Origin: a virus
Virus record (IMG/VR): IMGVR_UViG_3300023103_000006
Span: 1 to 53,175 of that record
Length of the DNA: 53,175 nt
Strand: one strand, 5' to 3'
A model generated the notes under the pieces. It made no database searches, was not told where the DNA came from, and saw nothing but the letters and a program-made list of their open reading frames with translations. Numbering within the stretch: the first letter of the stretch is position 1; each line of letters begins with the position of its first letter. Below, in pieces: positions 23,758-41,807 of this stretch. Both the position numbers and the translations under genes were made by a program.

Positions 23758-24320
23758 TAATCAAGCAAAACTTTTTTGATATTGTACGAAAGGAATTAGG
23801 CAAACTCAATCAAAGTCAGGTTGATGGTTTTGATTTTATATTAGATTCGTTGACTAGTCAGGACGAGATTAAAGACTTAAGGCAGTTTGCTTATATCTTA
23901 GCTACTATCTGGCATGAGACAGCCAGAACTATGCAGCCTATTGAAGAGTGGGGTAAAGGTAAAGGACACGATTACGGCAAACCTGACCCCGTGACTAAAC
24001 AGGTTTATTACGGCCGTGGATATGTACAAATAACTTGGAAAGACAATTACCAGAAGTTTGCTAACATCTTAAATATCAACTTAGTAGGTAAGCCGGAACT
24101 GGCACTACAAAAAGAAGTAGCTATTAAAATATGTTTGATAGGCATGAAAGAAGGACTATTTAGGGCTAGCCATAAACTTGATATTTATTTCAACGAAACT
24201 AACGAGGATTGGATAAATGCCAGACTAATCATAAATGGGAAAAAGAAAGGCGAAACGCTACCCGACAAAGCAAAAGAAATAGCAGAATACGCAAAGATAT
24301 TTTATAAGGCGTTGATATAA
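23754..24320 (+). CDS. Endolysin, glycoside hydrolase family 19 (chitinase/lysozyme-like)
   Basis: The ATG at 23754 overlaps the previous stop and gives 188 residues; the longer TTG start at 23742 is less likely. The GH19 signature is clear: a catalytic Glu in W-H-E-T-A (residues 53-57), a second acidic pair in PIEEWGKGKG (62-71), and YYGRGYVQITWKDNY (85-99), equivalent to the YYGRGxxQLTWxxNY motif of class I chitinases and phage lysozymes. It should cut the peptidoglycan glycan chain at lysis. No signal peptide is present, so release would depend on a holin, probably encoded in the 30-32 kb operon. Confidence 0.9.
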   Translation: MIIKQNFFDIVRKELGKLNQSQVDGFDFILDSLTSQDEIKDLRQFAYILATIWHETARTMQPIEEWGKGKGHDYGKPDPVTKQVYYGRGYVQITWKDNYQKFANILNINLVGKPELALQKEVAIKICLIGMKEGLFRASHKLDIYFNETNEDWINARLIINGKKKGETLPDKAKEIAEYAKIFYKALI

Positions 24321-24329
24321 ACACAAAAT

Positions 24330-24361
24330 CCGCTTAGTAGCGGACTTGTGGGTTAACCCAA
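24330..24361. terminator. Two adjacent hairpins; possible terminator for leftward transcription
   Basis: A 6-bp stem, TCCGCT-TAGT-AGCGGA (24330-24345), is followed by a perfect 12-base palindrome, TGGGTTAACCCA (24350-24361). Read leftward, the first stem is followed by TTTTGTG, giving a weak intrinsic terminator for the leftward cluster ending at 24896. Read rightward there is no U run, so late transcripts could pass into the 24460 gene. Confidence 0.45.
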
Positions 24362-24396
24362 AAACTAAAACTGATATTTCCCTATCGAATCCAAAC

Positions 24397-24434
24397 CACC
24401 TTTAATCCAACTGAGAAGTGGGGTTTAAAAGGTG
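24397..24434 (+). other. Imperfect hairpin in leader of the spanin-like gene
   Basis: CACCTTTAA-T-CC pairs with GG-TTTAAAAGGTG across a 12-base loop, with a one-base bulge. It ends 25 bases before the ATG at 24460 and may influence translation or processing of that mRNA. No promoter of the usual form is evident between here and the endolysin gene. Confidence 0.4.
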
Positions 24435-24459
24435 AAAACAAATATAAACAAAAAATCTT

Positions 24460-24906
24460 ATGCTCAAAATACTTTCGTTCTTTTCTTTGGAAAGAATACT
24501 TTCAATAGTTTCGCTGATTGGTATATTCTATCTAACACGTGATGTAGTAAGCTGCCAGAAGAACAAAGTAATAAGTAAACTCGATAAAGAGATAATCAAA
24601 AAAGATGAAATTATAGTATCAAAAGATTTAGTTATCACTCAACTACAAAAAGACACCTCAGAATACCGTCAGAACTTCGCTATATCAAGTATTCAGATAG
24701 ACTCTTTACAATCTATGGTTCAATACTTTTCAAAGCGTGATAGAGCCTTAAAACGTGATTTATTAGAATCACAAGAATCAATGAAACACGCAATAGATGA
24801 AGGGATAGTAATTTGTGATACTTTATTCGTAAAGCCCGTTAATTTATTCAAAAAAGGAGCTTATAAGCGCATTCCTAAATCAGAGATAAGAGAGATTAGG
24901 GATTAG
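24460..24906 (+). CDS. Membrane-anchored coiled-coil protein, candidate i-spanin
   Basis: The protein has 148 residues. An N-terminal membrane segment lies at about residues 12-28 (ILSIVSLIGIFYLT), followed by a long charged coiled coil (about 35-115, many Lys, Asp, Gln and Ile) and a basic C-terminal tail. This is the architecture of inner-membrane spanins, which connect to the outer membrane and disrupt it at lysis. The gene directly follows the endolysin, which supports the role. No small outer-membrane lipoprotein partner is seen next to it. The last 11 bases overlap the convergent gene on the other strand. Confidence 0.6.
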   Translation: MLKILSFFSLERILSIVSLIGIFYLTRDVVSCQKNKVISKLDKEIIKKDEIIVSKDLVITQLQKDTSEYRQNFAISSIQIDSLQSMVQYFSKRDRALKRDLLESQESMKHAIDEGIVICDTLFVKPVNLFKKGAYKRIPKSEIREIRD

Positions 24907-29570: not shown

Positions 29571-30070
29571 GATTTCCTTTCATTTAAGCACTCTTCAACC
29601 ACGCTAGAAACTGCCAATGTCATTTTAGCTTTAAATGAAGCATCTTGTTTTAGCTCATTTACAACTTTGTCGAATAAGCTATCGCTACTTGAAAGCATTG
29701 AACGAGATACTTTGTGAGAAAAGGCATTAATAACAGATTGTTTAAAATCATCGGTATTGATTACCTTCGTAAAGCTGTCAGAAATAATTTGCCTTAACGA
29801 TGTAGTGTTTTCGTCAACTACTGAAATTATTAACTTATTTAGCGGGCTTTGATAGCCAGTAAGTACAGTTTTCATGGCTTCTGCTATGGATTGTTGCGCT
29901 GTAATTAGAATATCTTTTTCGAGATAAACAGGGTTATGCTTTTTTTGAATACCTTCATTCAGTTCTTTTACTGATTTGTCAGTAAACCTTTCTAGGTTTT
30001 GGTTTTTGTCTTGTAGGTCACGAACTGTTTTCTTTAGTTCGTCGAACTCGTGCTGTTCTTGTTTTGTCAT
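29567..30070 (-). CDS. Helical protein headed by structured leader element 1, unknown
   Basis: Starting at the ATG at 30070 gives 167 residues; a longer reading begins at 30136 but would translate through the leader RNA structure and is rejected. The protein is predominantly helical with a coiled-coil start (residues 1-45, EFDELKKTVRDLQDKNQNLE) and Ser-rich helices later (HKVSRSMLSSSDSLFDKVV). It is the first gene of the leftward cluster, just downstream of leader element 1, so it and the following genes would be controlled by that leader. Function unknown. Confidence 0.7.
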   Translation of the reverse strand: MTKQEQHEFDELKKTVRDLQDKNQNLERFTDKSVKELNEGIQKKHNPVYLEKDILITAQQSIAEAMKTVLTGYQSPLNKLIISVVDENTTSLRQIISDSFTKVINTDDFKQSVINAFSHKVSRSMLSSSDSLFDKVVNELKQDASFKAKMTLAVSSVVEECLNERKS

Positions 30071-30081
30071 TGATGTAAAAT

Positions 30082-30198
30082 AAAAAATTCCTTGATTGGG
30101 GCTTGGACTTAGCAGGGGTGGATTAGACCCGTCCAAACTTTCCTATCAAGGAATTTCTCTAATATCTTTAAATCCGTTCGGCTGCTAAACCGTTGAAC
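30082..30198 (-). promoter_or_regulatory. Structured leader RNA, element 1 (pseudoknot type)
   Basis: On the leftward transcript, a hairpin (arms within 30176-30198, inner CGG/CCG) presents the loop TTTAGCAG (30189-30182). Its TTAGCAG is perfectly complementary to CTGCTAA (30115-30109), which lies as a seven-base strand between two stacked stems: TTGGAC/GTCCAA (136-131 with 108-103) and GGGT/ACCC (130-127 with 119-116). All of this is enclosed by a perfect 12-bp stem (30145-30156 with 30085-30096) that runs into TTTTTTATTTT, 12 bases before the ATG. The outer stem plus U run could act as a terminator; the loop pairing would modulate it. Architecture parallels elements 2 and 3. Confidence 0.7.
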
Positions 30199-30228
30199 AA
30201 ATATAGTAGTCATATTTTGAATTTCCAA
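30198..30228 (-). promoter_or_regulatory. Leftward promoter of early cluster
   Basis: Read leftward: TTG (30228-30226), 20 bases, TATATTTG (30205-30198). This fits the Bacteroidota -33/-7 consensus. The same TTG-N20-TATATTT geometry precedes leader elements 2 and 3. It overlaps the rightward promoter of the gene at 30250. Confidence 0.8.
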
Positions 30229-33309: not shown

Positions 33310-33639
33310 TTAATTGGAGTTTTTAGGGTGAAAATAATGTATGTCGTCCGTCCATTCGTACGGAATTTTTATTTCATTTAAACAATTTTGTCCCCTATTC
33401 AATATTTCTCCCTTTTCCTTATCGCTGTAATCGATAATCTTATTTTTATCAACTCCGCCAAGCGAAGAGTAGCAGTTGTAAAAATAAATCCCTAAACTTT
33501 CACATTTTTTATACGCTTTCCTTAGTTCTTCAAAAGCCATTTTCTGCTTTGGAGTTAAACAAAATAATTCATCTTGTTCTGTCAATTCTTCTTTTTTAAG
33601 ATTGTCAAATTTTTTCTGCGCAAAATATTCTTTCTCCAT
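33310..33639 (-). CDS. First gene after structured leader element 2, unknown
   Basis: This 109-residue charged helical protein (KKFDNLKKEELTEQDELF, TPKQKMAFEELRKAYKKCE) ends in a region with Tyr, Trp and His (IPYEWTDDIHYFHPKN). Its ATG lies 13 bases after the U run of a terminator hairpin, so its expression should depend on leader element 2. No family recognised. Confidence 0.7.
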   Translation of the reverse strand: MEKEYFAQKKFDNLKKEELTEQDELFCLTPKQKMAFEELRKAYKKCESLGIYFYNCYSSLGGVDKNKIIDYSDKEKGEILNRGQNCLNEIKIPYEWTDDIHYFHPKNSN

Positions 33640-33651
33640 ATTAATATAAAA

Positions 33652-33752
33652 TAAAAAAGCCTTTACAAAATAAAGGCGACTACTCCCTTACTCATAAAGG
33701 CTGTGGTATGTTAATACCAAAATCTTTTCTTACAGGTAGTCGTTTCTGTAAG
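33652..33752 (-). promoter_or_regulatory. Structured leader RNA, element 2 (kissing loop with competing terminator)
   Basis: On the leftward transcript: hairpin P1, CTTACAG/CTGTAAG (33752-33746 with 33735-33729), has a loop containing CGACTAC. That loop is perfectly complementary to GTAGTCG (33683-33677), which sits in the loop of P3 (CCTT/AAGG). P3 is enclosed by P2, AGCCTTTA (33702-33695) with TAAAGGCT (33665-33658). A small hairpin, GGTAT/ATACC, lies between (33705-33718). The same downstream TAAAGGC can pair instead with a nearer GCCTTTA to make an intrinsic terminator (33659-33677) followed by TTTTTTATTTT. The two folds exclude each other, as in a transcription attenuator or riboswitch. 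Confidence 0.75.
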
Positions 33753-33761
33753 TATTGAACA

Positions 33762-33792
33762 CAAATATACTAAAAAACTACTTAACTTTCAA
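33762..33792 (-). promoter_or_regulatory. Leftward promoter before leader element 2
   Basis: Read leftward: TTG (33792-33790), 20 bases, TATATTTG (33769-33762). The -33 part overlaps the 3' end of the small gene at 33778-33930. Geometry is identical to the promoters of elements 1 and 3. Confidence 0.8.
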
Positions 33793-39932: not shown

Positions 39933-40182
39933 ACAATTTGAATAATATTTTTTCGCAACACGCAACGCAACACATACCCCTATATACTACTGTGTAGAAA
40001 AAAAAGATTATTTTATTTGTACCCCCATCATTTTTTTAGAAAACAATGTGTTGCTACGTTGCGTATAAGTAAAAAGTAGCTCTAAATCAATGTATATAAA
40101 AGAATTTTCAAAAACACATATACAAATAAAGTGTTGCGCTGCAACAGATTAAAGTGTTGCGTAAATATTTTTATTCAAACCG

Positions 40183-41426: not shown

Positions 41427-41664
41427 CGTTTAAATCTCTTTTAGTTACTAATTTGTACAAACTTTTAAGTTCTTCTACTGTTTCTATACGGATATTATCA
41501 GAACCATAATACCATGAGCCTGCAACAAATCCATGTTCTGTAACTTTGCAAATACTTATACCTAATTTAACATCGTGTTTAACATAACTTACCCAATCTT
41601 TAGTGCCAGTTCTGCAAGGCGTAAACCCATAAACTGTAATATTATCTTCGGTTAATTTTTCCAT
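41419..41664 (-). CDS. First gene after structured leader element 3, unknown
   Basis: The protein has 81 residues. Strands and turns with Trp and Tyr (YGFTPCRTGTKDWVSYVKH, GFVAGSWYYGSDNIRI) are followed by a C-terminal helix. Its own leader contains structured element 3. The gene ends eight bases inside the convergent rightward gene. No family recognised. Confidence 0.7.
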   Translation of the reverse strand: MEKLTEDNITVYGFTPCRTGTKDWVSYVKHDVKLGISICKVTEHGFVAGSWYYGSDNIRIETVEELKSLYKLVTKRDLNAT

Positions 41665-41679
41665 TTTAGATAGTTTTAA

Positions 41680-41771
41680 AATAATAATGCCCCAAATACC
41701 TGCTTAGCTTCTGACGTCTAAACAAAATAGATGAGGCAAAAATCTTAATGGCAGTATAGTCAGAAGTGCCA
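41680..41771 (-). promoter_or_regulatory. Structured leader RNA, element 3 (kissing loop)
   Basis: On the leftward transcript: P1, TGGCA/TGCCA (41771-41767 with 41753-41749), has a 13-base loop starting CTTCTGAC (41766-41759). This is perfectly complementary over eight bases to GTCAGAAG (41715-41708), which lies in the loop of P3, TTTAG/CTAAG (41722-41718 with 41707-41703). P3 is enclosed by P2, TGCCTC/GGGGCA (41738-41733 with 41693-41688, one G-U). TTATTATTTTA follows. No U-rich terminator competes as clearly as in element 2. Order and pairing match elements 1 and 2 although the sequences differ. Confidence 0.7.
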
Positions 41772-41776
41772 ATGAT

Positions 41777-41807
41777 TAAATATAGTAAGAAATTATGTAA
41801 AAAGCAA
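41777..41807 (-). promoter_or_regulatory. Leftward promoter before leader element 3
   Basis: Read leftward: TTG (41807-41805), 20 bases, TATATTTA (41784-41777). It lies between the methyltransferase gene ending at 41817 and leader element 3, and gives the 81-residue gene its own transcript. Confidence 0.75.

Follow-up and report, generated by a model that had tools for sequence, protein, structure and literature searches.

On the minus strand of the DNA analysed here (the window, all 53,175 nucleotides of the IMG/VR virus record IMGVR_UViG_3300023103_000006) we found a leader, E2, that opens a phage operon and in which the loop of a 5' hairpin (K) is complementary to a sequence (K') in the apical loop of a predicted intrinsic terminator. 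With moderate confidence we interpret E2 as a transcription attenuator that works in cis through kissing loops. We established directly the structure, the compensatory changes by which it is conserved, its location in front of phage operons and the lack of such elements in the host DNA sampled, and the finding that the pairing letters vary from phage to phage yet remain complementary points to a widespread RNA switch that is absent from Rfam.

The E2 leader begins with a promoter of the Bacteroidota type (33762..33792, minus strand, as for all E2 features), composed of TTG (33792-33790), 20 nucleotides and TATATTTG (33769-33762), and continues with the 5' hairpin H1 (CTTACAG-AAACGACTAC-CTGTAAG, 33729..33752) that carries K (CGACTAC, 33742-33736), a linker containing a middle hairpin (TGGTAT-TAAC-ATACCA, 33704..33719) that is no conserved trait of the leader class, and the terminator hairpin (33659..33701). 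The latter consists of a basal stem (GCCTTTA/TAAAGGC), an apical stem and an apical loop with K' (GTAGTCG, 33683-33677), the exact complement of K. There are two copies of GCCTTTA (33701-33695 and 33677-33671), which share TAAAGGC (33665-33659) as 3' arm, and a tract of six U residues follows (33653..33658). Past the middle hairpin the order is GCCTTTATGAGTAAGGGAGTAGTCGCCTTTATTTTGTAAAGGC-TTTTTT, and 13 nucleotides on lies the ATG (33639) of the first gene (33310..33639, encoding a protein of 109 amino acids with no function assigned and with a weak tblastn match to gp037 of Cellulophaga phage phi19:1). The promoter, the loop complementarity, GCCTTTA/TAAAGGC with its U-tract and the spacing to the ATG are all present in the stretch originally pointed out.

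The fold of the E2 leader was better than that of 200 out of 200 shuffled sequences (z = -3.85), and none of 10,000 dinucleotide shuffles attained the whole architecture (promoter, 5' hairpin and K' inside the terminator), as judged by a score that was devised after E2 had been seen. In the minimum-energy fold the upstream GCCTTTA pairs with TAAAGGC in one long hairpin that has K' in its apical loop. This hairpin is more stable than the short alternative (-16.8 versus -7.4 kcal/mol for the terminator hairpin and -30.5 versus -24.3 kcal/mol for the whole leader); a stable hairpin followed directly by six U residues looks like a strong terminator. The original prediction had given K' a second hairpin of its own and had regarded the pairing of the upstream GCCTTTA as an antiterminator. 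The complementarity of the K' loop to K holds, but the loop belongs to the terminator itself in the minimum-energy fold and there is no separate second hairpin. The antiterminator reading fails because both GCCTTTA folds use TAAAGGC directly before the U-tract, so that both are terminators. In line with this, an alignment of homologous leaders contained no conserved competing helix that would make antiterminator and terminator strands mutually exclusive. The long terminator hairpin is the conserved fold in these leaders, with K' between its arms and no overlap, and the best alternative helix (the A-rich linker against the U-tract) is weak.

Two other leaders in the window, E1 (30.2 kb) and E3 (41.8 kb), have the same order of parts as E2 in unrelated sequences, and each lies directly before an open reading frame. 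E1 (30082..30228, minus strand) consists of a TTG-N20-TATATTTG promoter, an H1 (CGG-TTTAGCAG-CCG) with K (TTAGCAG, 30188-30182), a terminator (arms at 30156-30145 and 30096-30085) containing K' (CTGCTAA, 30115-30109) and a U-tract (30087-30082). In the list of open reading frames the E1 gene begins at a TTG within the terminator hairpin region (30070-30136, minus strand); the ATG at 30070, 3' of the terminator, is the likelier start of this gene, which would encode 167 amino acids. E3 (41678..41807, minus strand) has a TTG-N20-TATATTTA promoter, an H1 (TGGCA/TGCCA) with K (CTTCTGAC, 41766-41759), a K' (GTCAGAAG, 41715-41708) that directly adjoins the terminator's apical stem (TTTAG/CTAAG), a terminator stem TGCCTCA/TTGGGGCA and a gene starting at the ATG at 41664; taken alone it is weaker, as 21 of 10,000 shuffles reach its score. 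A fourth candidate at 24467 (24320-24467, minus strand), with a TTG-N18-TATATTTG promoter, a hairpin and a GTCCGC/GCGGAT terminator, was rejected, since it failed the kissing scan and has no convincing kissing pair. A leader-peptide attenuator was rejected as well: as read from the sequence, the E2 leader contains one ATG with 10 codons, and no ATG is found inside the E1 and E3 leaders. Elsewhere in the window (39980-40160), GCAAC/GTTGC words are clustered around divergent promoters upstream of the primase gene, and this cluster is possibly an origin or an operator array.

The pairing between K and K' is maintained by compensatory change. In 11 syntenic leaders, all eight K:K' pairs show two-sided changes and all cells pair. 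Because these leaders came from a scan that requires K:K', a blind test was made in IMG/VR with the pattern GTTGCNNNNNNNCANNATAGCAAC, whose fixed letters, apart from the final one of K, lie only in the stem of the 5' hairpin and in the linker. The search gave 41 promoter-linked matches (some records being counted twice), 38 of which have a perfect 8-nucleotide complement of K 34-38 nucleotides downstream, and the remaining three have seven of the eight letters plus a G-U pair; a complement of K was found for none of the 50 matches without a promoter. The 29 distinct full-length leaders from this search (four of them also in the syntenic set) have pairing in 232 out of 232 K:K' cells (100%), compensatory change on both sides in six of the eight K:K' pairs and covariation in both terminator stems, and for the whole structure 169 double-change cells were counted against 47.5 +/- 6.0 after shuffling, although these counts of changes are not independent events because related leaders share ancestry. 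The covariation in homologous leaders on which the original prediction had been made to depend is therefore strong. Among 31 leaders we counted 18 variants of K. A hypervariable K was rejected and no claim of diversifying selection is made, as the mean change rate of K is no higher than that of its flanks (0.376 versus 0.397); in one pair of loci, L186 and L191, 4 of the 16 K/K' letters differ against some 2% elsewhere.

Leaders of this type are found in many phages, as seen in a scan anchored on promoters. It covered 194 loci with a total of 2.83 Mb, mainly from Bacteroidota phages or relatives (three loci came from bacterial contigs, and phyla beyond Bacteroidota were barely represented). 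On a home-made score, 33 cases reached 52 or more where dinucleotide shuffles gave 1.25, and 23 cases reached 56 or more where shuffles gave 0.25-0.5. The same scan of host DNA (60 Flavobacteriales genome stretches, 1.10 Mb, 1448 promoter sites) gave no case at 52 or more against 1.75 expected, and a covariance model of the primase-operon family (R1), which is family-specific and was run with a fast filter that may miss weak matches, had no match in 396 Flavobacteriales genomes. These phages independently bear out the predicted combination, at the start of phage operons, of a structured leader, paired loops and an intrinsic terminator.

Elements were found, among others, in phage phi19:1, which infects Cellulophaga baltica, and in the Flavobacterium phage elemoE. 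Kissing leaders frequently head replication operons. For instance, in phi19:1-like phages the element occupies a syntenic position some 0.8-1.7 kb ahead of the primase gene, about 23 loci have the gene order small open reading frame, protein of about 220 amino acids (whose single, weak match in PHROGs is a primosomal protein) and primase/helicase, and at four loci (L045, L051, L061 and L067) the element directly precedes the primase gene. The open reading frame typically starts about 9-60 nucleotides 3' of the terminator. One phage contig of 15.7 kb (L137) has at least three kissing leaders with distinct barcodes (CGGGCAGG, GTCGTCG and AATGGTACT). As for E2 itself, an exact 15-mer of its 5' hairpin had 35 matches in IMG/VR, none with K' downstream, which we ascribe to chance because the repeated contexts look like coding sequence. 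The exact 30-mer of the E2 terminator, the E2 gene and the primase, each queried alone, identified no relatives, and blastn with the E2 leader returned only promoter-like matches, in Riemerella phages.

The geometry of the loops suggests how such a leader may work. In the alignment of the family, K' directly abuts the 3' strand of the covarying apical stem and two nucleotides 5' of K' are unpaired; E2 and E3 fit this geometry by inspection. K and K' are nearly free already in the minimum-energy folds of E1-E3, and leaving them free costs 0.3 to 2 kcal/mol, so that the terminator fold can accommodate the kissing pair; the kissing helix, which ViennaRNA cannot score as such, amounts to -7 to -13 kcal/mol when treated as an ordinary duplex. 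A kissing-stabilised attenuator is preferred mainly because the geometry suits two closed hairpins that kiss, so that the fold would include the terminator. Transcription would start a few nucleotides before the 5' hairpin displaying K, and K' in the apical loop of the emerging terminator would dock onto K to give one compact kissing fold. Since this fold and the U-tract behind it precede the first codon (by 13 nucleotides in E2), most transcripts would stop as leader RNAs some 100 nucleotides long and the operon would be expressed through read-through only. The balance would be reset by competitors for K or K', for instance the leader RNA of other genome copies or a factor of phage or host origin. 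Termination in vivo is inferred, as is a role of kissing in favouring rather than hindering it. The proposed attenuator resembles that of pT181 (PMC4878617) in its 5' hairpin, kissing loops, intrinsic terminator and specificity set by the loops; however, the partner in pT181 is a separate antisense RNA and its antiterminator strand competes with the terminator, whereas here the partner loop lies on the same RNA and there is no conservation of a competing strand.

In some lineages a third copy of K was found at the start of the downstream gene. At 7/7 loci of Riemerella phages, the 15 nucleotides of K are the exact reverse complement of K', and the first 12 of them recur at the gene start (from the T of the ATG on), again in 7/7 loci. 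There are five distinct variants of K and start region among these seven loci, i.e. K, K' and the gene start show three-way covariation (L392-L396 and L038), and in the annotated cases an antirepressor gene comes directly after the gene behind the leader. A third copy of K beside the ATG is also present in L186 and L191 (GGTACAG), L207 (GTGCAG) and L351 (CCTCTTAC), L186/L191 and L207 differ by a similar three-way change, and another is seen in L351. As a general rule the start-codon copy was rejected, as it is confined to some lineages and none was found behind E1, E2 and E3. Translation may be the regulated step in the lineages that have it, because K' there also matches the translation start, and the copy would be another possible competitor for K or K'. 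Rfam searches of the Riemerella loci gave only sub-threshold matches on the opposite strand; a DUF3800-VIII match was observed at 275-340 of L392 and 475-540 of L396 (minus strand, 34.8 bits against a cut-off of 40.2).

The third copies argue for a C4- or P4-like antisense control in trans, in which the terminated leader would act on other copies of its own transcript (copy control or superinfection immunity) and K would define specificity groups, a possibility that we consider real but rather unlikely. The divergence of K and K' between L186 and L191 would fit such groups, and the order of K, K' and start copy resembles that of phage P1, which is a1, C4, a2. There is also a precedent in the CI RNA of P4, which stops the P4 replication genes via premature termination (PMC4825925). 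However, E1-E3 and most other leaders lack a third copy near the ATG, K and K' are already paired in one RNA and should therefore be silent in trans, and K evolves on average no faster than its flanks.

The leaders would act in the manner of attenuators and possibly in that of C4 or P4 CI RNA. Membership of C4 or P4 CI RNA is not supported, because there was no match to the Rfam model of C4 antisense RNA (RF01695) and the elements of the window lack the target at the start codon. At the gathering cut-off, Rfam 15 had no match in the window or in eight element-bearing phage loci, so that the check proposed with the original prediction revealed no existing family; at relaxed thresholds the matches were at chance level, and a full-text search of a partial literature collection found no description of the architecture. 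The loops of C4 RNA in P1 bind target mRNAs at ribosome-binding sites (PMC5320573), and a c4-a1b1 element is listed separately from C4 (PMC2864571). Similar to the C4 RNA of P1 and P7 (RF01695; PMC2864571, PMC5320573), the elements described here are phage leader RNAs with short loops complementary to the same transcript and with few-letter changes altering specificity, and the Riemerella layout (upstream copy, antisense, translation-start copy, and an antirepressor gene near downstream) resembles, by analogy, the C4 antisense immunity of P1. In contrast, C4 RNA is about 77 nucleotides long, is excised by RNase P and has three stem-loops with two antisense loops, whereas our leaders have a single loop pair with the antisense strand within an intrinsic terminator. 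A loop complementary to the translation start, as in C4, was found in the Riemerella phages, L186, L191, L207 and L351 and in none of E1-E3. To P4 CI RNA (PMC4825925) there is a resemblance, at the sequence level, as a leader RNA with short complementary sequences within the same leader; P4 CI is however released from its transcript by processing and has two pairing sites (seqA and seqC), whereas each of our elements has one complementary site, in the terminator loop.

The effect of kissing may also have the opposite sign, because K:K' might form just before the 3' arm of the terminator. In this improbable case K would capture K' as it leaves RNA polymerase and delay the apical stem, read-through would be the default and loss of kissing would switch the operon off. 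K' indeed emerges ahead of the 3' arm, the duplex energy given above would allow capture, and an alternative fold of E2 has K' free between two short hairpins; however, the tight placement of K' in the apical loop, against a covarying stem, suits both hairpins being closed together. It is very unlikely that the leader binds a ligand, as a riboswitch, or a protein, with an aptamer that includes the kissing loops. In the cobalamin riboswitch (L5-L13; PMC10907184) an upstream loop likewise kisses the hairpin loop of the expression platform in cis, and the linker (AAAGRAATTWT) is alike, by eye, in several families. The cobalamin kissing is, however, ligand-controlled and hides the ribosome-binding site, and in our leaders no aptamer is visible; the small-molecule riboswitch originally proposed is not indicated, as no conserved aptamer-like sequence or core was seen across families, Rfam gave chance-level matches only and three different elements precede unrelated genes in one phage. 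Also very unlikely is a reading in which the short transcript released at the terminator is the end product, a stable small RNA with a closing hairpin at either end, since the promoter, 5'-end hairpin and 3'-end terminator that would fit such an RNA are mostly followed at short distance by an ATG with conserved operons behind, in a gap without another obvious promoter for the downstream genes.

We tentatively suggest, with low confidence, that these leaders are the Bacteroidota-phage counterpart of P1 C4 and P4 CI: a large phage-specific family of self-complementary leaders providing sequence-barcoded RNA immunity or copy control, in which each leader would recognise its own transcripts only, would gate replication and antirepressor operons and might occur with several independent barcodes per genome. 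The leaders described here would amount to a widespread type of RNA-based control, apparently not yet catalogued, over the early and the replication operons of Bacteroidota phages. Their K/K' barcodes, which can be mutated, compensated and swapped, would offer a direct genetic handle on operon timing versus copy control versus superinfection immunity, and the exchangeable kissing barcodes of 7-8 nucleotides may be a natural candidate set of orthogonal attenuators.
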